DNA of 27,247 nucleotides from a virus. The stretch lies in the IMG/VR virus record IMGVR_UViG_3300034198_007761, positions 1 to 27,247 of that record; one strand, given 5' to 3'. Positions 5,775 through 13,385 of this stretch are shown in pieces. The notes beneath the pieces were generated by a model. The model did no database searches. It was not told the origin of the DNA and saw only the letters and a program-made list of their open reading frames with translations. How positions within the stretch are numbered: the stretch's first letter is position 1; every line of letters starts with the position of its first letter. The position numbers and the translations under genes were made by a program.

Positions 5775-6022
5775 TGTGTAAATCATGCGGCTGTGGCTGC
5801 TCTAAGCCAAACTGTAAGGGTGCTTGTAAGAAAGCCGATAAGAAGCAAGATGCCAAAGTAAAGAGGGGCATGACCCCAGCTCAGAAGAAGAAGTTTGATG
5901 CTGCTGATAAGAAGATGGATGCTAAGAACCCACCTCGTGGTAAAGATAAAGAGATGGATGAAGCTCTAGCAGATAAGATTACGGGCAAGAAAAAGAAAGC
6001 CCCAGCTAAGAAAAAGAAGTAA
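5774..6022 (+). CDS. Small protein with Cys-rich N-terminus and Lys-rich tail
   Basis: This gene encodes 82 aa. Six cysteines lie within the first 18 residues (C2, C5, C7, C9, C14 and C18), arranged as CxxCxCxC then C and C. The spacing could bind zinc or another metal, or form disulfides. The remaining 60 residues are alternately Lys and Asp/Glu/Ala rich, with a GMTPAQKKKFDAADKKMDAK helix and a terminal KKKKAPAKKKK tail. The ATG overlaps the previous TAA and AAGGAG is present at 5763-5768. A strong terminator follows immediately. Short Cys- and Lys-rich proteins of this type are known in actinobacterial phages as hypothetical proteins. I do not know the function; a nucleic-acid-binding role is suggested only by charge. 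Confidence 0.72.
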   Translation: MCKSCGCGCSKPNCKGACKKADKKQDAKVKRGMTPAQKKKFDAADKKMDAKNPPRGKDKEMDEALADKITGKKKKAPAKKKK

Positions 6023-6027
6023 GCTTT

Positions 6028-6050
6028 AGAGCCCCGAAAGGGGCTCTTTT
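6028..6050 (+). terminator. Strong rho-independent terminator
   Basis: A perfect 8-bp stem (AGAGCCCC at 6028-6035 with GGGGCTCT at 6040-6047) closes a GAAA tetraloop and runs into TTTT. It starts only six bases after the stop of the Cys-rich gene and divides the surface/connector block from the tail genes. Confidence 0.9.
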
Positions 6051-6121
6051 GCTTTATGATTACCTTGACGCCAGAGCAATCTGGAACCCTGCTGCATTAA
6101 CCGCGCCTCTATGGAGGATTT

Positions 6122-6283
6122 ATGATCTTTTTAGTCAATCGGCTAAACCGTGCTGAAACGGACGCCGACAAAGAAGAGTTTGTTCGAGGAGTCGTTGGCC
6201 TGAAAAAAGGTGGCGAAAAGAAAGCTGCAGTCGGATTTATTGCGGGTTATCTTGTCTCGAAAGCTCTTCGTAAAAATGGCTGA
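6122..6283 (+). CDS. 53-aa protein with one hydrophobic helix
   Basis: This short gene encodes 53 aa starting MIFLVNRLNRAETDADKEEF and ending in a helix AAVGFIAGYLVSKALRKNG. The ATG at 6122 has GGAGG at 6113-6117 just upstream, the best ribosome binding site in this gap. Its TGA overlaps the ATG of the next gene by eight bases, a typical translational-coupling arrangement and a further argument that it is translated. The central half is charged and the C-terminal 20 residues could form a short membrane-spanning or amphipathic helix. The function is not recognised. It is the first gene after the terminator at 6028-6050. Confidence 0.6.
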   Translation: MIFLVNRLNRAETDADKEEFVRGVVGLKKGGEKKAAVGFIAGYLVSKALRKNG

Positions 6284-6560
6284 TTTATTTTTTAAGCGGT
6301 TAAATAAGCAGGTCATTAAAGAAGTAGCTGACGTTTTAGATCGTCATTCGCTGCACCTACAATATGAAGCTTTAAATTCGGGTTGGCCTAGTGAGTTAGC
6401 AACAGCCCTAGAGTTACAGCTTCAACCAGACGGTACCGCTAAAGTGGTTTACCCGCCTGAACTTCAAGACCGTATCCTAGATAAAGAATACGGCAATCCA
6501 GATACTCCACCCCATCCGGTAATTCGTAATTACCTAACCAAGATTGGGGTAGCTAAGTAA
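6276..6560 (+). CDS. Putative neck / minor tail protein, HK97-gp10-like
   Basis: This gene encodes 95 aa from the ATG at 6276. A GTG at 6210 in the same frame was rejected because it would extend far into the 53-aa gene, whereas the ATG gives a short overlap. The N-terminal half is helical (FFKRLNKQVIKEVADVLDRH). The second half holds DRILDKEYGNPDTPPHPVIR followed by NYLTKIG, resembling the HK97-gp10/tail-completion pattern in which an E-Y/F-G...PP.P.(L/I)R...  segment ends a small neck protein. Its place between the connector-like gene and the terminator-like gene supports a head-tail joining role. It has no ribosome binding site of its own and probably relies on coupling to the upstream gene. 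Confidence 0.62.
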   Translation: MADLFFKRLNKQVIKEVADVLDRHSLHLQYEALNSGWPSELATALELQLQPDGTAKVVYPPELQDRILDKEYGNPDTPPHPVIRNYLTKIGVAK

Positions 6561-7195
6561 TGCCATTTATTTTAAATGAAGAGACGGCTTTGAAGGCACT
6601 CCTTGGGGGAATAATAGTTTCAGATTCCGGCAATGCCTCTCGTCCTGTACACGTATTTTATGGCCAGCCAGATAAAGAAATACGTCAGCAGTCCTATCCG
6701 TATATTACTATTGATTTGATTAATATCTCAGAAGCTACTGAAAGAGTTCAATCCGGTATTATTCACTTGCCGTATCACCCAGAAGATTGGGACGGAGTCT
6801 CTAGCTTGGATACATGGTATCCTATGCCTATTAATTTAGATTACCAGATTACGACCTACTCTCGTCAACCTCGACATGACAGGGCAATTTTAGGGCAGCT
6901 ATTTTCAATAAGTAGATTGCCCGTTAGATTTGGATCCATCTATATACCACAAGACAACACATGGCGTCGACTGGATATGCTTGGGTTTTCCAAAAGAGAC
7001 ACAACTGAAGCAGACAAACGTCTCTTCATGAATGTCTATTCAATCCGGATTAGCTCTGAACTTCTCAGAGTTAATCTTTCAGGTCCAGATGCACCGATTG
7101 TTACCAAACGAAATATTGGTATCAATGGTGTGGCTGAATTTGATACCCCAATATACAAACTGTTACAACTACAGCAGGAAGCACAACCAAACTAA
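6560..7195 (+). CDS. Putative tail terminator / tail completion protein
   Basis: This gene encodes 211 aa and starts in a TAATG overlap with the previous gene. The protein has an N-terminal helix (NEETALKALLGGII), then a segment with VHVFYGQPDKEIRQQSYPYI, where a conserved-looking P-Y-I strand follows, then a central YQITTYSRQPRHDRAILGQL block typical of small alpha/beta tail-terminator folds in which a strand pairs with a helix bearing D.A..L. The size and the position directly before the sheath match T4 gp15-like or gpU-like terminators in other contractile phages. Such proteins cap the last ring of tube and sheath and join the head. The family assignment is inferred from context and general pattern rather than a diagnostic motif. 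Confidence 0.6.
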   Translation: MPFILNEETALKALLGGIIVSDSGNASRPVHVFYGQPDKEIRQQSYPYITIDLINISEATERVQSGIIHLPYHPEDWDGVSSLDTWYPMPINLDYQITTYSRQPRHDRAILGQLFSISRLPVRFGSIYIPQDNTWRRLDMLGFSKRDTTEADKRLFMNVYSIRISSELLRVNLSGPDAPIVTKRNIGINGVAEFDTPIYKLLQLQQEAQPN

Positions 7196-7242
7196 AATTC
7201 GGACCCCAAAGAAAACAACCTACTAATTAAGGAGAAAATCGG

Positions 7243-8820
7243 ATGGCTACATTCAGTAGACCAGGCGTCTTTATCCAGGAAGTGGAACTTCCCCAGACCA
7301 TTGAGCTTGCCGACACCGGTAATGCTATTGGTGCGTTCATTGGCGCACTAGCCAAGGGTCCTACAAGTGTTCCCGTCCTACTTAACTCTTGGACACAGTT
7401 TGTCAAGACTTTTGGAAACCTCGAAGACGCATACCCTACAACATGGGCTGCATACAACTTCTTTGCTAACGGAGGACGTCAGCTTTACGTAAAGCGCGTC
7501 GTTGGCTCAGGATCTGCGGCAGCTTCAGTAACACTTACAGATAGATCACAAGCTCAGCTTAATACAATCCTAGTATCAGCAGCAAATGCTGGTTCTTGGG
7601 GAAATCACTTAGCTGTACAGGTTCGTTCTGCAGGATCATCTAATCGTTTTGGTCTTGCCATTTTTGGTGCACCAATTATTACTGGTAATGCATCATCTAA
7701 CCTTCTAGAACAGTTTACTGATCTAAGCATGGTCACTACAGATCCACGTTACTTTGTTGATGTTATCAACTCAAGCTCTGCATACATAACCGTTGCAGAC
7801 CTTAACTCAGCATCAACAACACCAGACGATATGCCAGTAGCAGGCTCTACACTTTACACTCTAGGCTCAACAACTGCCGGAGCTGACGGTAGTGCACCTA
7901 CTCGCACAATCTACTCAAATGCTTTAACAGCTTTTGATCCAATTCAGAACCCGCTAGTAATAAATATCCCTGCAGCAGCATATATTTATACTACTTCAGG
8001 TTCAGGAACAGAACGCACTCTTGCTATTAACGTAATGGCAGACCTTGTTGCTTATTGCGAAGGTCGCGGAGATTCATTTGCTGTTCTTGATACTCCTGCA
8101 GGCCTTACAGCTGCAGAAGCTCAAACATTTGCTACAGATACTGTTGCTGGCTTTGCAGCTAGCTCAAATGGTGCCTGTGCAGCAATCTACTACCCATGGG
8201 TATTGATTCCTAATACTCTTCGTTCAATTCCAGGAGCAACACGTCTTCAGGCACCGGGTGCAGCAGTTGTAGGTCAATACCTAGCAACAGATGCTTCACG
8301 TGGCGTATTTAAGACGCCTGCTGGTTTAGGCAATAAGATCGCACTTGCAGTAGCTACAGAACATCAGTTTACAAATACTGAGCTTGATTCACTCAATACC
8401 TCAGCAGATCCTGTAAACGCTATTCGCCAAGTCCCAGGAGCTGGAATTGTAATCATGGGTGGACGTACCCTAGATAACACACCAGGTAAGCGTTACATTA
8501 ACGTTCGTCGTTCCCTCAATTACATTGAGAAAGAACTCAAGGATCTTACTGCATTTGCAGTCTTTGAGAACAACGATGGTCGTCTATGGAACCGACTCTC
8601 AACAGTTTGCGAAAACTTCTTGGGTTCATACTGGCAGCAGGGTGGACTACGTGGAACTTCACCAGCTGATGCTTACTACGTAAAGTGTGATGCTACAACA
8701 ACTCTTGAAGCGGACATCTCAAATGGCCGTGTCAATATTGAAGTAGGCGTTGCTCTTGAATACCCAGCCGAGTTTGTAGTTATTAAACTCGGTCAAATTA
8801 CCGGAAATGCTACGGCTTAA
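7243..8820 (+). CDS. Tail sheath protein
   Basis: This gene encodes 525 aa, starting at an ATG with AAGGAG at 7228-7233 upstream. The N-terminus (FSRPGVFIQEVELP) and the following GAFIGALAKGPTSVPVLL and WTQFVKTFG segments are characteristic of contractile tail sheath subunits. The C-terminal third shows the conserved sheath domain: INVRRSLNYIEKELKDLTAF, then FENNDGRLWNRL, a WQQGGLRG element, and a final strand with VEVALEYPAEFVV-like spacing (here VGVALEYPAEFVVIKLGQ). The middle (about 100-340) is a more variable surface-exposed insertion. Subunits stack around the tube and contract during infection. The tail tube follows 13 bases downstream with its own ribosome binding site. This identification is firm. 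Confidence 0.95.
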   Translation: MATFSRPGVFIQEVELPQTIELADTGNAIGAFIGALAKGPTSVPVLLNSWTQFVKTFGNLEDAYPTTWAAYNFFANGGRQLYVKRVVGSGSAAASVTLTDRSQAQLNTILVSAANAGSWGNHLAVQVRSAGSSNRFGLAIFGAPIITGNASSNLLEQFTDLSMVTTDPRYFVDVINSSSAYITVADLNSASTTPDDMPVAGSTLYTLGSTTAGADGSAPTRTIYSNALTAFDPIQNPLVINIPAAAYIYTTSGSGTERTLAINVMADLVAYCEGRGDSFAVLDTPAGLTAAEAQTFATDTVAGFAASSNGACAAIYYPWVLIPNTLRSIPGATRLQAPGAAVVGQYLATDASRGVFKTPAGLGNKIALAVATEHQFTNTELDSLNTSADPVNAIRQVPGAGIVIMGGRTLDNTPGKRYINVRRSLNYIEKELKDLTAFAVFENNDGRLWNRLSTVCENFLGSYWQQGGLRGTSPADAYYVKCDATTTLEADISNGRVNIEVGVALEYPAEFVVIKLGQITGNATA

Positions 8821-8833
8821 GGAGATATAAAAC

Positions 8834-9454
8834 ATGCCCGCAACATCATTAAATAACATCCTAGCAAATCGCATGGCTTCGGATCCAATCCGTACGTTTA
8901 AGTTCTTGGTAACTTTTACACCTAATACGGAAGATACGAAGTTTGATACTTCAAATTGGAACAAGATGGGCTTCGTATCCGTATCGGGACTTAGCGTATC
9001 TACAGAGCCAATTGCGTACCGCGAAGGTGGATACAACACAAACGTTCACCAGATTCCAGGACAGTCTTCATTTACACCAATTACTTTATCTCATGGTTTG
9101 CTTTTGGGTCAGACTCAAAACCAAGCATGGATGAAGCGTTTGTTTGCAATGTTGACTCCTAAGGCAACTTCAGGCGTTGGCGCGGACTTCCGTTGCACAC
9201 TTGACATTGCAGTACTTAGCCATCCAAACCCAGCAGGTTTTGATGTTGCTAACGGTCAGACAGCTGACACCGATGGTGGCCAGCACGTCTCTATGCGCTT
9301 CAAGGTATATAATGCTTGGATCGCAAACCTTGGTTACAGCAACCTTGATGCAGGACAAAGCACATTGATGGTAGAAGAAATGACTATCGTACATGAAGGC
9401 TTTGACGTATCAGTTGCATCAGGCTATAGCGCAACAGCACCACTAATCAGCTAA
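8834..9454 (+). CDS. Tail tube protein (T4 gp19-like)
   Basis: This gene encodes 206 aa, starting at an ATG with AAGGAG at 8819-8824 upstream. It shows the layout of myovirus tube subunits: MASDPIRTFKFLVTF near the N-terminus, then FVSVSGLSVSTEPIAYREGG with the typical G-L plus E-x-I-x-Y-R-E-G-G segment, then PITLSHGLLLGQ, and a C-terminal strand with LGYSNLDAGQSTLMVEEMTIVHEG. Subunits form hexameric rings that stack into the inner DNA-conducting tube. Its place directly after the sheath and before the assembly chaperone follows the usual gene order. The long segment at about 110-150 is probably a loop specific to this group. The identification is firm. Confidence 0.94.
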   Translation: MPATSLNNILANRMASDPIRTFKFLVTFTPNTEDTKFDTSNWNKMGFVSVSGLSVSTEPIAYREGGYNTNVHQIPGQSSFTPITLSHGLLLGQTQNQAWMKRLFAMLTPKATSGVGADFRCTLDIAVLSHPNPAGFDVANGQTADTDGGQHVSMRFKVYNAWIANLGYSNLDAGQSTLMVEEMTIVHEGFDVSVASGYSATAPLIS

Positions 9455-9475: not shown

Positions 9476-10297
9476 ATGGCAAACGAAACCGTCATTAATG
9501 CGGCAGATAATCCAGCTATTGCAAATAAGCTTGTAGAAGAAGCTTTATCTGATAGGGGAGTAGAACAGCAGCAGGAACGAATCCCTGTTGTTCTACCCCC
9601 TAGCGGAGAAGTTATTCTTCCAGGCGGAATCAATGACCCTTTTGAGGGACACATTGGTACTGCTGAAGTACGTGAATTAAATGGTGGAGACGAAGAAGTA
9701 ATAGCTAGGATCATTGATCCGGGTAAATCTCTTCTAGCCATCCTAGATCGAGCAGTAGTATCAGTTGGTGGAAAACCAGCAGATAAAGACACCCTAGATA
9801 TGCTTCTTGCTGGTGATCGTGAAATGCTTCTTCTAGAAATTCGTAAAGCTACTTTTGGAGATGAAATTGTAGTAGGCCCAGGCCTATGCCCATCTTGTCA
9901 ACATGAGCAAACCTTTACAGTTCATTTAACAAATGATATTGAAGTTAAACACCTTAGTGAAGAAGATAGACACTTCTCATTAAAATGCAAGGTAGGCACT
10001 GTAGAGGTCTCCTTGCCGAATGGACAGGTCCAAAAGACCATAGTTAACTCTACAAATAAAAACTCGGCAGAATTGGATACCTTACTTCTCAAGGGTTGTA
10101 TCAATGAGATTAACGGGCTTCCAGTTACAGATATTCAGGTAATTAAAGACCTTAGTATCAAGGATCGCCGAGATATACTAAAGGCTATAACAGACCGTAA
10201 CCCTGGTCCACAACTCGGTTCACTTAAGAAAGCATGTCAGTCCTGTGGCTCGGAGGTACCACTTCCGCTAACCCTAGCGGAGTTGTTTCAGGAGTGA
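9476..10297 (+). CDS. Tail assembly chaperone, short form (T4 baseplate/gp26-like, two CxxC)
   Basis: This gene encodes 273 aa when read to the in-frame TGA. The central part carries ELNGGDEEVIARI, a LLAILDRAVVSVGG segment and DREMLLLEIRKATFGDEI, the hallmark of the family usually labelled T4 base plate/tail assembly chaperone protein. Two CxxC pairs (C138-C141 and C254-C257) could form one zinc site, as in related proteins where CP.C..E motifs flank a beta domain. Such proteins coat the tape measure before tube polymerisation. The spacing to the tape measure gene and the presence of a second open frame straight after the stop are typical for chaperone pairs expressed with a ribosomal frameshift. 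The ribosome binding site before the ATG is weak (TTAGGT). Confidence 0.85.
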   Translation: MANETVINAADNPAIANKLVEEALSDRGVEQQQERIPVVLPPSGEVILPGGINDPFEGHIGTAEVRELNGGDEEVIARIIDPGKSLLAILDRAVVSVGGKPADKDTLDMLLAGDREMLLLEIRKATFGDEIVVGPGLCPSCQHEQTFTVHLTNDIEVKHLSEEDRHFSLKCKVGTVEVSLPNGQVQKTIVNSTNKNSAELDTLLLKGCINEINGLPVTDIQVIKDLSIKDRRDILKAITDRNPGPQLGSLKKACQSCGSEVPLPLTLAELFQE

Positions 10298-10424
10298 AGT
10301 TAACTACGAACTTCTTATCGAAAGCTATGAAGTTCTAAGTAAAGCTTACCCAGGATGGACACTAAACGATATTAAAAACTTATCGTTTAGAGAACGAACC
10401 ATGTGGATTCTACGTATTAGGTGA
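9476..10424 (+). CDS. Tail assembly chaperone, predicted +1 frameshift product
   Basis: This is the long form, predicted to be 315 aa. After codon 271 (TTT at 10286-10288) a +1 slip would move tRNA-Phe from TTT to TTC and continue with AGG at 10290, adding 44 residues before the TGA at 10422-10424. The added frame reads cleanly as protein: YELLIESYEVLSKAYPGW, then a short helix with LNDIKNLSFRERTMWILRIR. It has no ATG, GTG or TTG between its opening at 10278 and the ATG at 10401, so independent initiation is unlikely. Tail assembly chaperones of many long-tailed phages are made as short and long forms through a frameshift of -1, -2 or +1. The slip position is inferred; an alternative -2 slip in the same few codons cannot be excluded. 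Confidence 0.68.
10279..10297 (+). promoter_or_regulatory. Candidate programmed +1 frameshift site
   Basis: The 0-frame codons are GAG TTG TTT CAG GAG TGA. GGAG (10279-10282) could pair with the 16S anti-Shine-Dalgarno, and it lies three bases before the TTT codon. This is the spacing of the AGGGGG element before CTT in the bacterial prfB +1 site. TTT followed by C allows tRNA-Phe to re-pair as TTC. The 0-frame stop is only two sense codons further. Confidence 0.55.
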
Positions 10425-10436
10425 GGCGGTGATTAA

Positions 10437-13385
10437 ATGAGTACCCAAAATATGGTCCCTACGGACGATTCTGGAGATGGCGTACCTGGAGCATTTATCC
10501 GGGAATACGAAAAGATCCTAAAGGTCATGAAAGATGTGACCAAAGAAACCGCAGAACAAAAGAAGAATGCTAAAGAAGCTTCTTCAGCATATAACGGTGA
10601 CAAAGTAGGCGGAGGAAAACTCGGCCTAGGCACCATGCCTTTACGCAGTGCGCTAAGTAACTTTAGCGGCGGTGAAAAGATGGCTATGGGCGCGGTTGCT
10701 GCGGGTGCAACATTTATGAGCATGGCACCTAATACCATGTCTGCTGTAGCTCAAAGAATGTACGCCGACTCAATAGCCGGCTTAAGCGGAATGAAGGCTC
10801 AACCCCTAATCCGTCAAGCTAATAGAATGGTCAATGGCGCAACTAGTGCTATGGGACCTACAGCCGCAGCTGCTAACCTTTACTATCAGGGTGGATATAG
10901 CGCCAACTCTTTAAGCTCTAAAAATATTATGCAGAGCCTTGGTGGAATGAGTGCCATCACAGGCGGAACAAATGAACAGACTGCATCCAGCTTAGCTGGA
11001 ATGAACGGAATGCTTTTCTTACGTGCCGGTATTCGTATTCGTGATAATAACGGTCAACTTTTGCCTATGGAGCAAATTGTTAACTCTGTTTATCGTGTTC
11101 TATACGGTGGGCGAAAAGTTACCTTACAACAAGCTGCATTATTATTAAACCCCTCTTCTAAGGGTTATCAAACACTTACTATTATTTGCGGTGGAGATCA
11201 AAATCTTCAATCAGCTATTTCTATGGCTGTTATTACCCGCGCTCGCAAAGGAACTGACTTAACTAAAAAAGATCTTGGTTCTGCACAAAACGCATTAACT
11301 GCAATGGGTGTTGGTGGAGAAAGCCCATTACGTGCTAACTTCCGCTATCAAGCAGGACAAAATGCCGCCCTTCAAGCAACAGAGGGTGGACTTGTTGGCG
11401 GATATAACACGTCATTAAACGTTGTTGGAGCACTCAATCAAGGATTTGCAGATCTTGCTTCAGCTTTAGGACCAGTTACTTCTGGGCTTATGGGTCTTAA
11501 AGGAATACTTCAAACATTTCCTAATGCAGGAAACATGGGCGGAACAATATCTGCTGCAGGAAGTACTGCAATGGGTTTTGCAAGTCAAGCAATGAATGCC
11601 GCAATTATGGGTAGAGTACTGGGCGTAGGTCGTTTTGCTGCAGGCGGTGGGGGAACTGCATCCCTACTTGCTGGTGGATTACGCGGTGGCGGAAGCATAC
11701 TATCTGGAATGAAAATGGGATTACGTGGTGGAGGAAGATTCTTAGGAAAAGCTATCCCAGGTCTTGGTGCGCTGTTAAGTGCCATGTCTGGTTATGGGGA
11801 CTCTAAAGCAAATAAAGGAATTTGGGGAGGACTTCTAGCCTCTGCAGGTACTGGTGCTTTAGTAGGTGCAGGTACTGGCGCTATGGCCGGCGGTGTTGGA
11901 GCAATTCCAGGGGCGTTACTTGGGGCATTAATTTCTGGTGGCGGTTATCTTGGAGGAAGACTTTTAGGAAGCGGCGGACCAGATGACGAACATCATCATG
12001 GATTCGGTACTGGTGGCGGAAACGATGCTGGTGGACAAGCCACATTTAATCTTCCCGTTCCTAAAGGAACACCCGTAACTTCCCCTTATGGCCCACGTAA
12101 GGGTGGAAAAGGCGTTAGTAAAAACCACCATGGTATTGACTTTGGTGTACGTGAAAATACAAATGTAACTGCAGCAGCAGATGGCGTTGTTACTGAAGTC
12201 GGTAACGGTGGTGGATACGGAAACTACGTAATTATTAAACACGGTTCTAAGTCAACTCTTTATGCCCACTTAAATAGCTCAAGCGTTAAAGTGGGGCAGG
12301 CAGTAAAGGGGGGTCAAATAATTGCTAAATCTGGAGGTCGTAAAGGAGCTCCTGGGGCCGGCGCATCTACTGGACCGCACCTTCACTTTGAAGTACGAGA
12401 TAATGGCGGGCGCGGTGCACAGGGTCGTGTAAATCCTGCAGGTTTCTTTGGTAAGGCTGCTAACTTTATTTCAAACGCATTTAAAGCTGGAATTAATATG
12501 GCTAAAAGTGTAGGAACTTTCTTAACCGCACCCTTTAGAGCTGGGTCACAAGCAATATCAAATATGCTTGGTGGAAATAAGCGTGCTCCAGAATTAAGCC
12601 CTACAGATCTTTCGGGATTAAACAGCCCTGAATTACGAGCACTACTACACGACTCTATTGTTGCAGGAAGACCTTTGGGCAGCGAAGATCTTAAAAAGTA
12701 TATGACTGGAATGAACAACCGTAAGTTAAAGCTTAGTGGTGGGTCTAAAGTCCTTCTTGATAATAAAGACGATCCAATGGCTCCAGATGGACAGATGGCC
12801 GGAGGAAGTCGTGCTGGTCTTATAAAGCTTCTAGCAAGGCATGGTTTCTCAGGAAAGAATCTAGAGACTGCATTTGCAGTTGCTGCTGCCGAATCTAGAG
12901 GTCGTGCTGTTGATTATAATGGCAAAGGAAGAGATAAGTCTTACGGGCTATTTCAAATCAACATGAATAATGATGATCCTAAGAGCCCTAATATGGGCCG
13001 CAATAGATTAAAGCAATTTGGCATTAAGAATTATAACGACCTAATGAATCCAGAAATAAACGCTAAGGCTGCCTATATGGTATCTACCAAAGGTACGTCT
13101 TGGAAAGCTTGGTCTACATATAATGACGGCACATTCCTTAGATATTTAGATGATGCTCAAAGAGCTAAAGAAACCGCCGGAATTGGTGGGCCTACAGGTA
13201 CCGATGGAATGGCTTCTGTTGCTACTCAAACTAAAGAACCTGTAACTCCCCACAATGTTGAGGTAAAGGTAACCATGCATGTAAATATAGCCCAGTCTGG
13301 AGTACGTGAAGCTGAACAAATGTTTAGAACCTTTAGCAAGCGTGTAGAAGAGGCTATTCAAAAGAAGCAGTTGGGAGTCTACTAA
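10437..13385 (+). CDS. Tape measure protein with M23 endopeptidase and lysozyme-like domains
   Basis: This gene encodes 982 aa. The N-terminal ~380 residues are helical and Ala/Met/Gly-rich, followed by a Gly-rich hydrophobic stretch (about 380-515), as in tape measure proteins whose hydrophobic segments contact the host membrane. An M23 zinc metallopeptidase domain (about 540-665) shows its ligands and catalytic residues: H564 and D568 in HHGIDFG, H611 in YAHL, and H648/H650 in HLHFEV. A lysozyme/transglycosylase-like domain follows at about 795-900, with the likely catalytic Glu at residue 819 in AAAESRG and YGLFQIN at 836-842. The C-terminus is a charged helix. The protein sets tail length and probably cuts wall peptide and glycan during DNA entry. 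It starts after GAGG at 10423-10426 and overlaps the next gene by one base. Confidence 0.92.
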   Translation: MSTQNMVPTDDSGDGVPGAFIREYEKILKVMKDVTKETAEQKKNAKEASSAYNGDKVGGGKLGLGTMPLRSALSNFSGGEKMAMGAVAAGATFMSMAPNTMSAVAQRMYADSIAGLSGMKAQPLIRQANRMVNGATSAMGPTAAAANLYYQGGYSANSLSSKNIMQSLGGMSAITGGTNEQTASSLAGMNGMLFLRAGIRIRDNNGQLLPMEQIVNSVYRVLYGGRKVTLQQAALLLNPSSKGYQTLTIICGGDQNLQSAISMAVITRARKGTDLTKKDLGSAQNALTAMGVGGESPLRANFRYQAGQNAALQATEGGLVGGYNTSLNVVGALNQGFADLASALGPVTSGLMGLKGILQTFPNAGNMGGTISAAGSTAMGFASQAMNAAIMGRVLGVGRFAAGGGGTASLLAGGLRGGGSILSGMKMGLRGGGRFLGKAIPGLGALLSAMSGYGDSKANKGIWGGLLASAGTGALVGAGTGAMAGGVGAIPGALLGALISGGGYLGGRLLGSGGPDDEHHHGFGTGGGNDAGGQATFNLPVPKGTPVTSPYGPRKGGKGVSKNHHGIDFGVRENTNVTAAADGVVTEVGNGGGYGNYVIIKHGSKSTLYAHLNSSSVKVGQAVKGGQIIAKSGGRKGAPGAGASTGPHLHFEVRDNGGRGAQGRVNPAGFFGKAANFISNAFKAGINMAKSVGTFLTAPFRAGSQAISNMLGGNKRAPELSPTDLSGLNSPELRALLHDSIVAGRPLGSEDLKKYMTGMNNRKLKLSGGSKVLLDNKDDPMAPDGQMAGGSRAGLIKLLARHGFSGKNLETAFAVAAAESRGRAVDYNGKGRDKSYGLFQINMNNDDPKSPNMGRNRLKQFGIKNYNDLMNPEINAKAAYMVSTKGTSWKAWSTYNDGTFLRYLDDAQRAKETAGIGGPTGTDGMASVATQTKEPVTPHNVEVKVTMHVNIAQSGVREAEQMFRTFSKRVEEAIQKKQLGVY

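Follow-up and report, generated by a model that had tools for sequence, protein, structure and literature searches.

Closest described systems

To our knowledge, few natural +1 frameshifting signals are known, and stimulation by a 5' hairpin has been shown mainly in constructs. The tail assembly chaperone genes of phages lambda (gpG/gpGT), P2 (E/E'), HK97 and Mu lie beside the tail tube and tape measure genes and encode a short product, to which frameshifting adds an extension containing a small C-terminal domain; slippage is -1 in lambda, P2 and HK97 and -2 in Mu. Frameshifted tail chaperones are already known, and a +1 shift has been suspected for that of HSTV-2, which is described only as very likely +1 and with no mention of a 5' hairpin (PMC5009743). 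+1 shifts in structural or assembly genes are also described for Listeria phage PSA and SPP1 (PMC5009743, PMC3498833); PSA uses CCC_U with a stop codon or a 3' pseudoknot, unlike the gene described here.

Several other systems bear on the mechanism. In prfB (RF2), a P-site YUU re-pairs with UUU/UUC while a 5' element acts on the ribosome. UUU_C is a +1 slippery site, and predicted viral sites prefer CGN in the A site (PMC3498833); influenza PA-X uses UUU_CGU. Huang, Cho and Chang (2018), working with an E. coli extract, found that +1 frameshifting at CUUUGA is stimulated by a hairpin placed 5' of the site and next to the E site, reaching about 60% of the effect of an SD, and that this required the absence of RF2 (PMC6321510). 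T4 genes 38 and 25 are initiated from an SD bridged by a hairpin (PMC3014915).

A T4 gp26/gp51-family gene in the position of a tail assembly chaperone

The window, meaning the whole stretch of DNA analyzed, is a 27-kb virus contig (27,247 nt; IMG/VR record IMGVR_UViG_3300034198_007761). It carries a contractile-tail module in which the sheath, tube, PF12322 gene and tape-measure-position gene follow one another in this order:

7243-8820, + strand: tail sheath protein of a contractile tail (PF17482, PHROG 23)
8834-9454, + strand: tail tube protein (gp19-like), the upstream neighbor (PF06841, E 1.8e-21)
9476-10297, + strand: zero-frame product of 273 aa, T4 gp26/gp51-family protein and probable tail assembly chaperone, the "G-like" short form
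10437-13385, + strand: tape-measure-position protein, the downstream neighbor (PF01551 and PF18896; PHROG tape measure matches)

The gene at 9476 matches PF12322 (T4_baseplate) with 43.1 bits against a cut-off of 24.5 (E 5e-11) and belongs to PHROG 150; T4 gp26 and gp51 match the same model. It stands between the tube (PF06841) and the tape measure, the position that lambda G/GT-type chaperones occupy. Its N-terminal protein differs from those of lambda, P2, HK97 and Mu in belonging to the PF12322 family, with zinc-ribbon-like cysteine pairs. According to Pfam, the tape-measure-position protein combines an M23 peptidase domain with a lysozyme-like one (SLT_3). An Rfam search of the window returned no RNA families.

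The zero-frame protein and the domain encoded in the +1 frame were modeled separately with AF2. For the zero-frame product (pLDDT 87), the clear top match in the PDB was the HK97 tail assembly chaperone 2ob9, with a Foldseek probability of 0.99 and a borderline E of 0.038; structural comparison of the two gave a borderline Z of 7.1 over 79 residues with an rmsd of 3.1 (VIA). The fold of the HK97 chaperone appears recognizable in the model. The 45-aa +1 domain was modeled as three helices (pLDDT 92), and a fold search with it gave no significant match. It is weakly similar to the P2 E' domain: PF06528 (P2 GpE) matched the +1 domains of 11 of 34 relatives below the cut-off (best E 3.9e-4), two individually scanned relatives scoring 13.9 and 15.2 bits against a cut-off of 23, compared with 78.5 bits for P2 E' itself, and the window domain had no match to this model. 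We infer the G and GT roles of the two products from the gene position, the fold match to HK97 and the PF06528 matches, which together support a G/GT-type chaperone pair.

A conserved UUU_Y site where the zero frame overlaps a startless +1 frame

The zero frame ends in GAG TTG TTT CAG GAG TGA, and the overlapping frame runs on past its stop:

10275-10277, + strand: TAG closing the +1 frame upstream, which limits the position of a slip
10286-10289, + strand: shift site UUU_C (TTT_C), with TTT in 48 of 48 dereplicated relatives
10287-10424, + strand: +1-frame extension, a "T-like" helical domain (FRSEVNYELLIESYEVLSKAYPGWTLNDIKNLSFRERTMWILRIR), with a homologous +1 frame in 84 of 84 sequences analyzed
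10289-10297, + strand: A-site codon CAG, then GAG and, two codons on, the zero-frame stop TGA (10295-10297)

No stop interrupts the +1 frame between 10278 and its TGA at 10422-10424, and the extension comprises 45 codons counting the shared Phe, plus the stop. Its first ATG, GTG or TTG comes only at about the 38th codon, as expected from the first-pass annotation, which had described a startless open frame behind the chaperone stop and whose coordinates for it proved right. By itself, a 42-codon open frame past a stop is unsurprising, and several other coding sequences of the window have such overlaps; what raises this one above chance is the conservation of the site across relatives.

Scans of IMG/VR found at least 568 relatives of the window gene, of which the best 80 were kept; a dereplicated set contained 48 relatives below 90% identity, with Streptomyces phages among them. 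Streptomyces phages BRock, pSt2308, GiJojo, LuckySocke and Alone3 came from the phage collection (31-35% identity), and a scan of genome contigs returned no relatives. Every sequence analyzed has a zero frame that ends shortly past an in-frame TTT, followed by the same +1 domain. Among the 48 dereplicated relatives, the base after this TTT is C in 40 and T in 8, whereas 9 of the 197 other TTT codons in these genes have C or T as their next base; the relatives share ancestry, so these counts are not independent trials, though the contrast is large. Within 71 distinct relatives, the string is TTTC in 61 and TTTT in the rest, so that the P-site UUU followed by C of the PA-X class prevails. Their A-site codon is CGN in 44, CAR in 17 and a stop in 10, that of the window being CAG; the zero-frame stop lies 1, 2, 3 or 4 codons past the TTT in 10, 17, 40 and 4 of them, respectively. 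Since the stop drifts while TTT_Y stays, TTT_Y rather than the stop is the fixed element. In most relatives, a stop shuts the +1 frame 3-5 codons before the site; together with the zero-frame stop, this confines the slip to a few codons, at TTT_Y.

The +1 domain is under purifying selection, judging from substitutions: pN lies well below pS, for example 0.12 against 0.75 between the window and one relative (L017). No conserved start for the +1 ORF was found in the 48 relatives, in which the first ATG, GTG or TTG is scattered from codon 7 to codon 50. The gene thus shows the overlapping, startless, shifted ORF with a conserved slippery site at the junction that characterizes lambda G/GT-type genes. 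From these comparisons, +1 frameshifting almost certainly occurs in the chaperone gene. The first-pass annotation had placed it at TTTC, and its proposal of a shift at UUU_C is strongly supported by the invariant TTT_Y, the conserved +1 domain and the lack of an alternative start in relatives. A -2 shift would lead into the same frame and was set aside only on account of its poor re-pairing; a +1 move lets tRNA-Phe exchange UUU for UUC or UUU with good pairing.

In the five Streptomyces phages, the +1 extension is missed or is annotated as a separate downstream gene, the latter in BRock, GiJojo and LuckySocke; the gene and its extension are likely to be one frameshifted gene.

A hairpin and an SD-like element precede the shift site

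Two further elements lie upstream of the slip codon:

10252-10257, + strand: SD-like GGAGGU in the Glu260-Val261 codons, 5 nt 5' of the hairpin
10263-10282, + strand: RNA hairpin UUCCGCUA-ACCC-UAGCGGAG, its 3' end 3 nt before the shift codon

Every relative of the window clade has this hairpin, in two registers plus a Streptomyces form, and its 3' end is always 3-7 nt before the TTT. It is far stabler than expected from a synonymous-codon null (mean z -3.9), and in a scan of 27-nt segments at offsets between 600 nt 5' and 60 nt 3' of the TTT, the stablest one ended exactly at the TTT. The other register is that of a subclade with CUGCCA-7nt-UGGCAG, which has no good SD at 3 nt; the Streptomyces phages have CCCRC-UGAAC-GUGGG, and the huge-phage relative LR756508 has an unrelated stem of the GCGCAUC/GAUGC type. 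A column-wise covariation test detected in-register compensatory changes in one pair only; covariation is hardly seen because the subclades use different registers, and the case for the hairpin therefore rests on the synonymous-codon null and on its recurrence in alternative registers.

The SD-like element is constant in the window clade. GAGGT, usually as GGAGGT, stands 5' of the hairpin in 48 of 48 relatives, and Glu260 is encoded by GAG in 45 of 45, though GAA is commoner in these genes (GAA:GAG 746:450); none of the other Glu columns is fixed for one codon. The distance from this SD to the shift codon is 28 nt, falling to about 8 nt with the hairpin closed. The region marked by the first-pass annotation (10278-10424) was correct in its coordinates, but the signal reaches farther upstream, to about 10252.

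A second, distant clade

Searches with LR756508 and its allies led to a second clade, for which IMG/VR holds at least 600 relatives. Its shift string, taken from 57 sites, is TTT TTT TGG CCT, with TTT CTT, TTC TTT and TAC variants, and nearly all of the 57 have the +1 domain. This clade appears, from its sequences, to shift +1 at YTT_T, CUU_U included.

The distance from the SD to the slip codon is 20-46 nt in the second clade, and it clusters at 6-10 nt once the hairpin is excised. A stable hairpin with an effective spacing of 6-10 nt was present in 28 of the 46 SD-bearing sequences, compared with 6.0 ± 2.1 expected under synonymous recoding, in a test (hairpin folded from the SD onward) that was refined after the data had been seen. 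The raw correlation between SD distance and hairpin span is in part trivial, since a longer stretch forms a longer hairpin, and hairpin strength and SD strength did not correlate significantly in this clade in a simple test (rho 0.24, p 0.07). About half of the clade falls outside the SD-hairpin pattern, and some members have no hairpin at all, so the pattern is not obligatory. Downstream of the second-clade sites, comparison with shuffles gave no clear signal for a 3' structural stimulator (mean z -0.9).

Two probable chaperone products from a proposed forward slip

Taken together, the gene probably makes two chaperone products through a slip at UUU_C that would be favored by the upstream hairpin and SD. 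Most ribosomes would stop at the TGA at 10295 and release the 273-aa short form, equivalent to lambda gpG. A minority, with UUU in the P site, would slip forward by one base during a slow A-site step: the P-site tRNA-Phe would re-pair from UUU to UUC while a Gln or Arg codon or a stop waits in the A site. Reading on in the +1 frame would yield a form of 315 aa that ends in a small helical domain and is the counterpart of lambda gpGT. The sequences show the ORFs and that the site, the domain, the hairpin and the SD are conserved; the slippage, its efficiency and an action of the hairpin and SD on it are what we infer.

The hairpin at 10263-10282 is expected to refold at the mRNA exit of the ribosome, 3 nt before the shift codon, and the GGAGGU 5' of it may act together with the hairpin from behind. 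A composite stimulator of this kind, an SD bridged by a hairpin and favoring forward slippage, is the reading toward which the conservation patterns lean, if only somewhat. By analogy, it would combine two actions: that of a hairpin at the exit and that of an SD reaching across a hairpin. For the former, the 5' hairpins of Huang, Cho and Chang were in an artificial reporter, whereas the sites here are natural, and the effect in their extract depended on the absence of RF2, whereas the A-site codon here is usually a sense codon (PMC6321510). For the latter, the split ribosome binding site of T4 genes 26-25 (and 38) likewise uses an intervening hairpin that brings the SD to working distance; its role in T4 is to start translation of gene 25 at an AUG, whereas in the present gene the arrangement stands before a slip codon that elongating ribosomes read.

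It is possible, though we consider it unlikely, that the shift needs nothing beyond UUU_Y and the A-site codon, the hairpin and SD being incidental or serving other ends, for instance stabilizing the mRNA or coupling translation to the start of the tape measure gene. UUU_C alone gives low-level +1 shifting in PA-X (PMC3498833), and the hairpin is absent from some members of the second clade. The gene does share the UUU_C string with PA-X (UUU_CGU/UUU_CGN), and CGN is frequent among the relatives (44 of 71), although the window has CAG; it differs in the bacterial ribosome, the upstream hairpin and SD, and the UUU_U-stop and CAR variants. Such a minimal site would leave unaccounted for a hairpin that is universal in the window clade in varied registers, exceeds the synonymous expectation and ends 3-7 nt before the TTT; nor would it account for SD position and hairpin size going together in the second clade.

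The first-pass annotation had instead taken the GGAG at 10279-10282, which does lie three bases before the TTT, for a prfB-like stimulator. Under this reading, GGAG or GGA in the 3' arm would lie at 3-nt spacing and pair with the anti-SD. In the window, GGAG occupies -7 to -4, GGA stands in this place in 33 of 48 relatives, and anti-SD pairing directly upstream of the TTT exceeds the synonymous null. Only 10 of 48 relatives, however, have GGAG at 3-nt spacing; in one subclade the place is taken by GCAGAN, which offers no good SD, and both this subclade and the Streptomyces phages lack GGAG yet have the hairpin. The same bases are accounted for by the stem, which would occlude them: what had been read as a prfB-like GGAG is the 3' arm of a hairpin common to all relatives. 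Compared with prfB, the 3-nt SD is not conserved, the A-site codon is mostly sense, the conserved SD lies 28 nt upstream with a hairpin between, and there is no autoregulation. A prfB-like element is thus improbable. The alignment of relatives divided the proposal: TTT_Y and the +1 frame were kept and the GGAG was not, a loss that tells against the SD part and leaves the frameshift standing.

Independent initiation or reinitiation of the second ORF, with the SD and bridging hairpin as a split ribosome binding site, is very improbable. Such a site has been demonstrated for T4 gene 25 at its junction with gene 26, the latter a member of the family described here (PMC3014915), and three Streptomyces phages are annotated with a separate downstream gene; yet no relative has an ATG, GTG or TTG in the +1 frame at the bridged distance, the first start ranging from codon 7 to 50, and conservation crosses the junction and the constant TTT_Y would go unexplained. 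That there is no shift, the downstream frame having arisen through sequencing error, gene decay or chance, is hardly conceivable: a single such overlap is not statistically striking, but the same overlap in more than 100 contigs of many samples and in isolated phages, under purifying selection, refutes it short of a systematic artifact.

The signal within the gp26 family

Among the papers covered, which were mostly open access, we found no report of a natural case in which an SD bridged by a hairpin stimulates frameshifting, nor one of +1 frameshifting in the gp26 family. Compared with lambda, P2, HK97 and Mu, the +1 direction on UUU_Y and the upstream hairpin-plus-SD signal look new. The family offers many natural variants of an exit-side upstream stimulator of +1 frameshifting. 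Whether the hairpin-bridged SD amounts to a new class of stimulator at UUU_Y/CUU_U, widespread in gp26-family genes of actinophages and T4-like phages, with T4 26 and 51 as the short and long products, seems to us evenly balanced.

T4 itself has two genes of the family, which together occupy 5803-7229 of its record: the short gp26 and the longer paralogue gp51 with a C-terminal extension. These may correspond to the short and frameshifted products of the relatives; the profile similarity between the gp51 extension and the +1 domain is only weak, so homology of these two is left as a suggestion.

Other members differ in direction. Bacillus SP-15, Listeria LIS04 and Streptococcus GXN1 phages have a +1 continuation near the same place, and Agrobacterium Atu_ph07, Pseudomonas PA5oct and Stenotrophomonas RAS14 have the domain in the -1 frame behind TTTTTTC or TTTTTTT, with stable stems downstream of the -1 strings in Atu_ph07 and PA5oct. 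With +1 and -1 members in one family, the frameshift seems older than its direction, which appears to have switched during the evolution of the gene family. A single member of the second clade (L163, at about 3230) has TTC TTT TGG CCC TCC with the domain in the -1 and not the +1 frame, through an indel, an error or a real switch.
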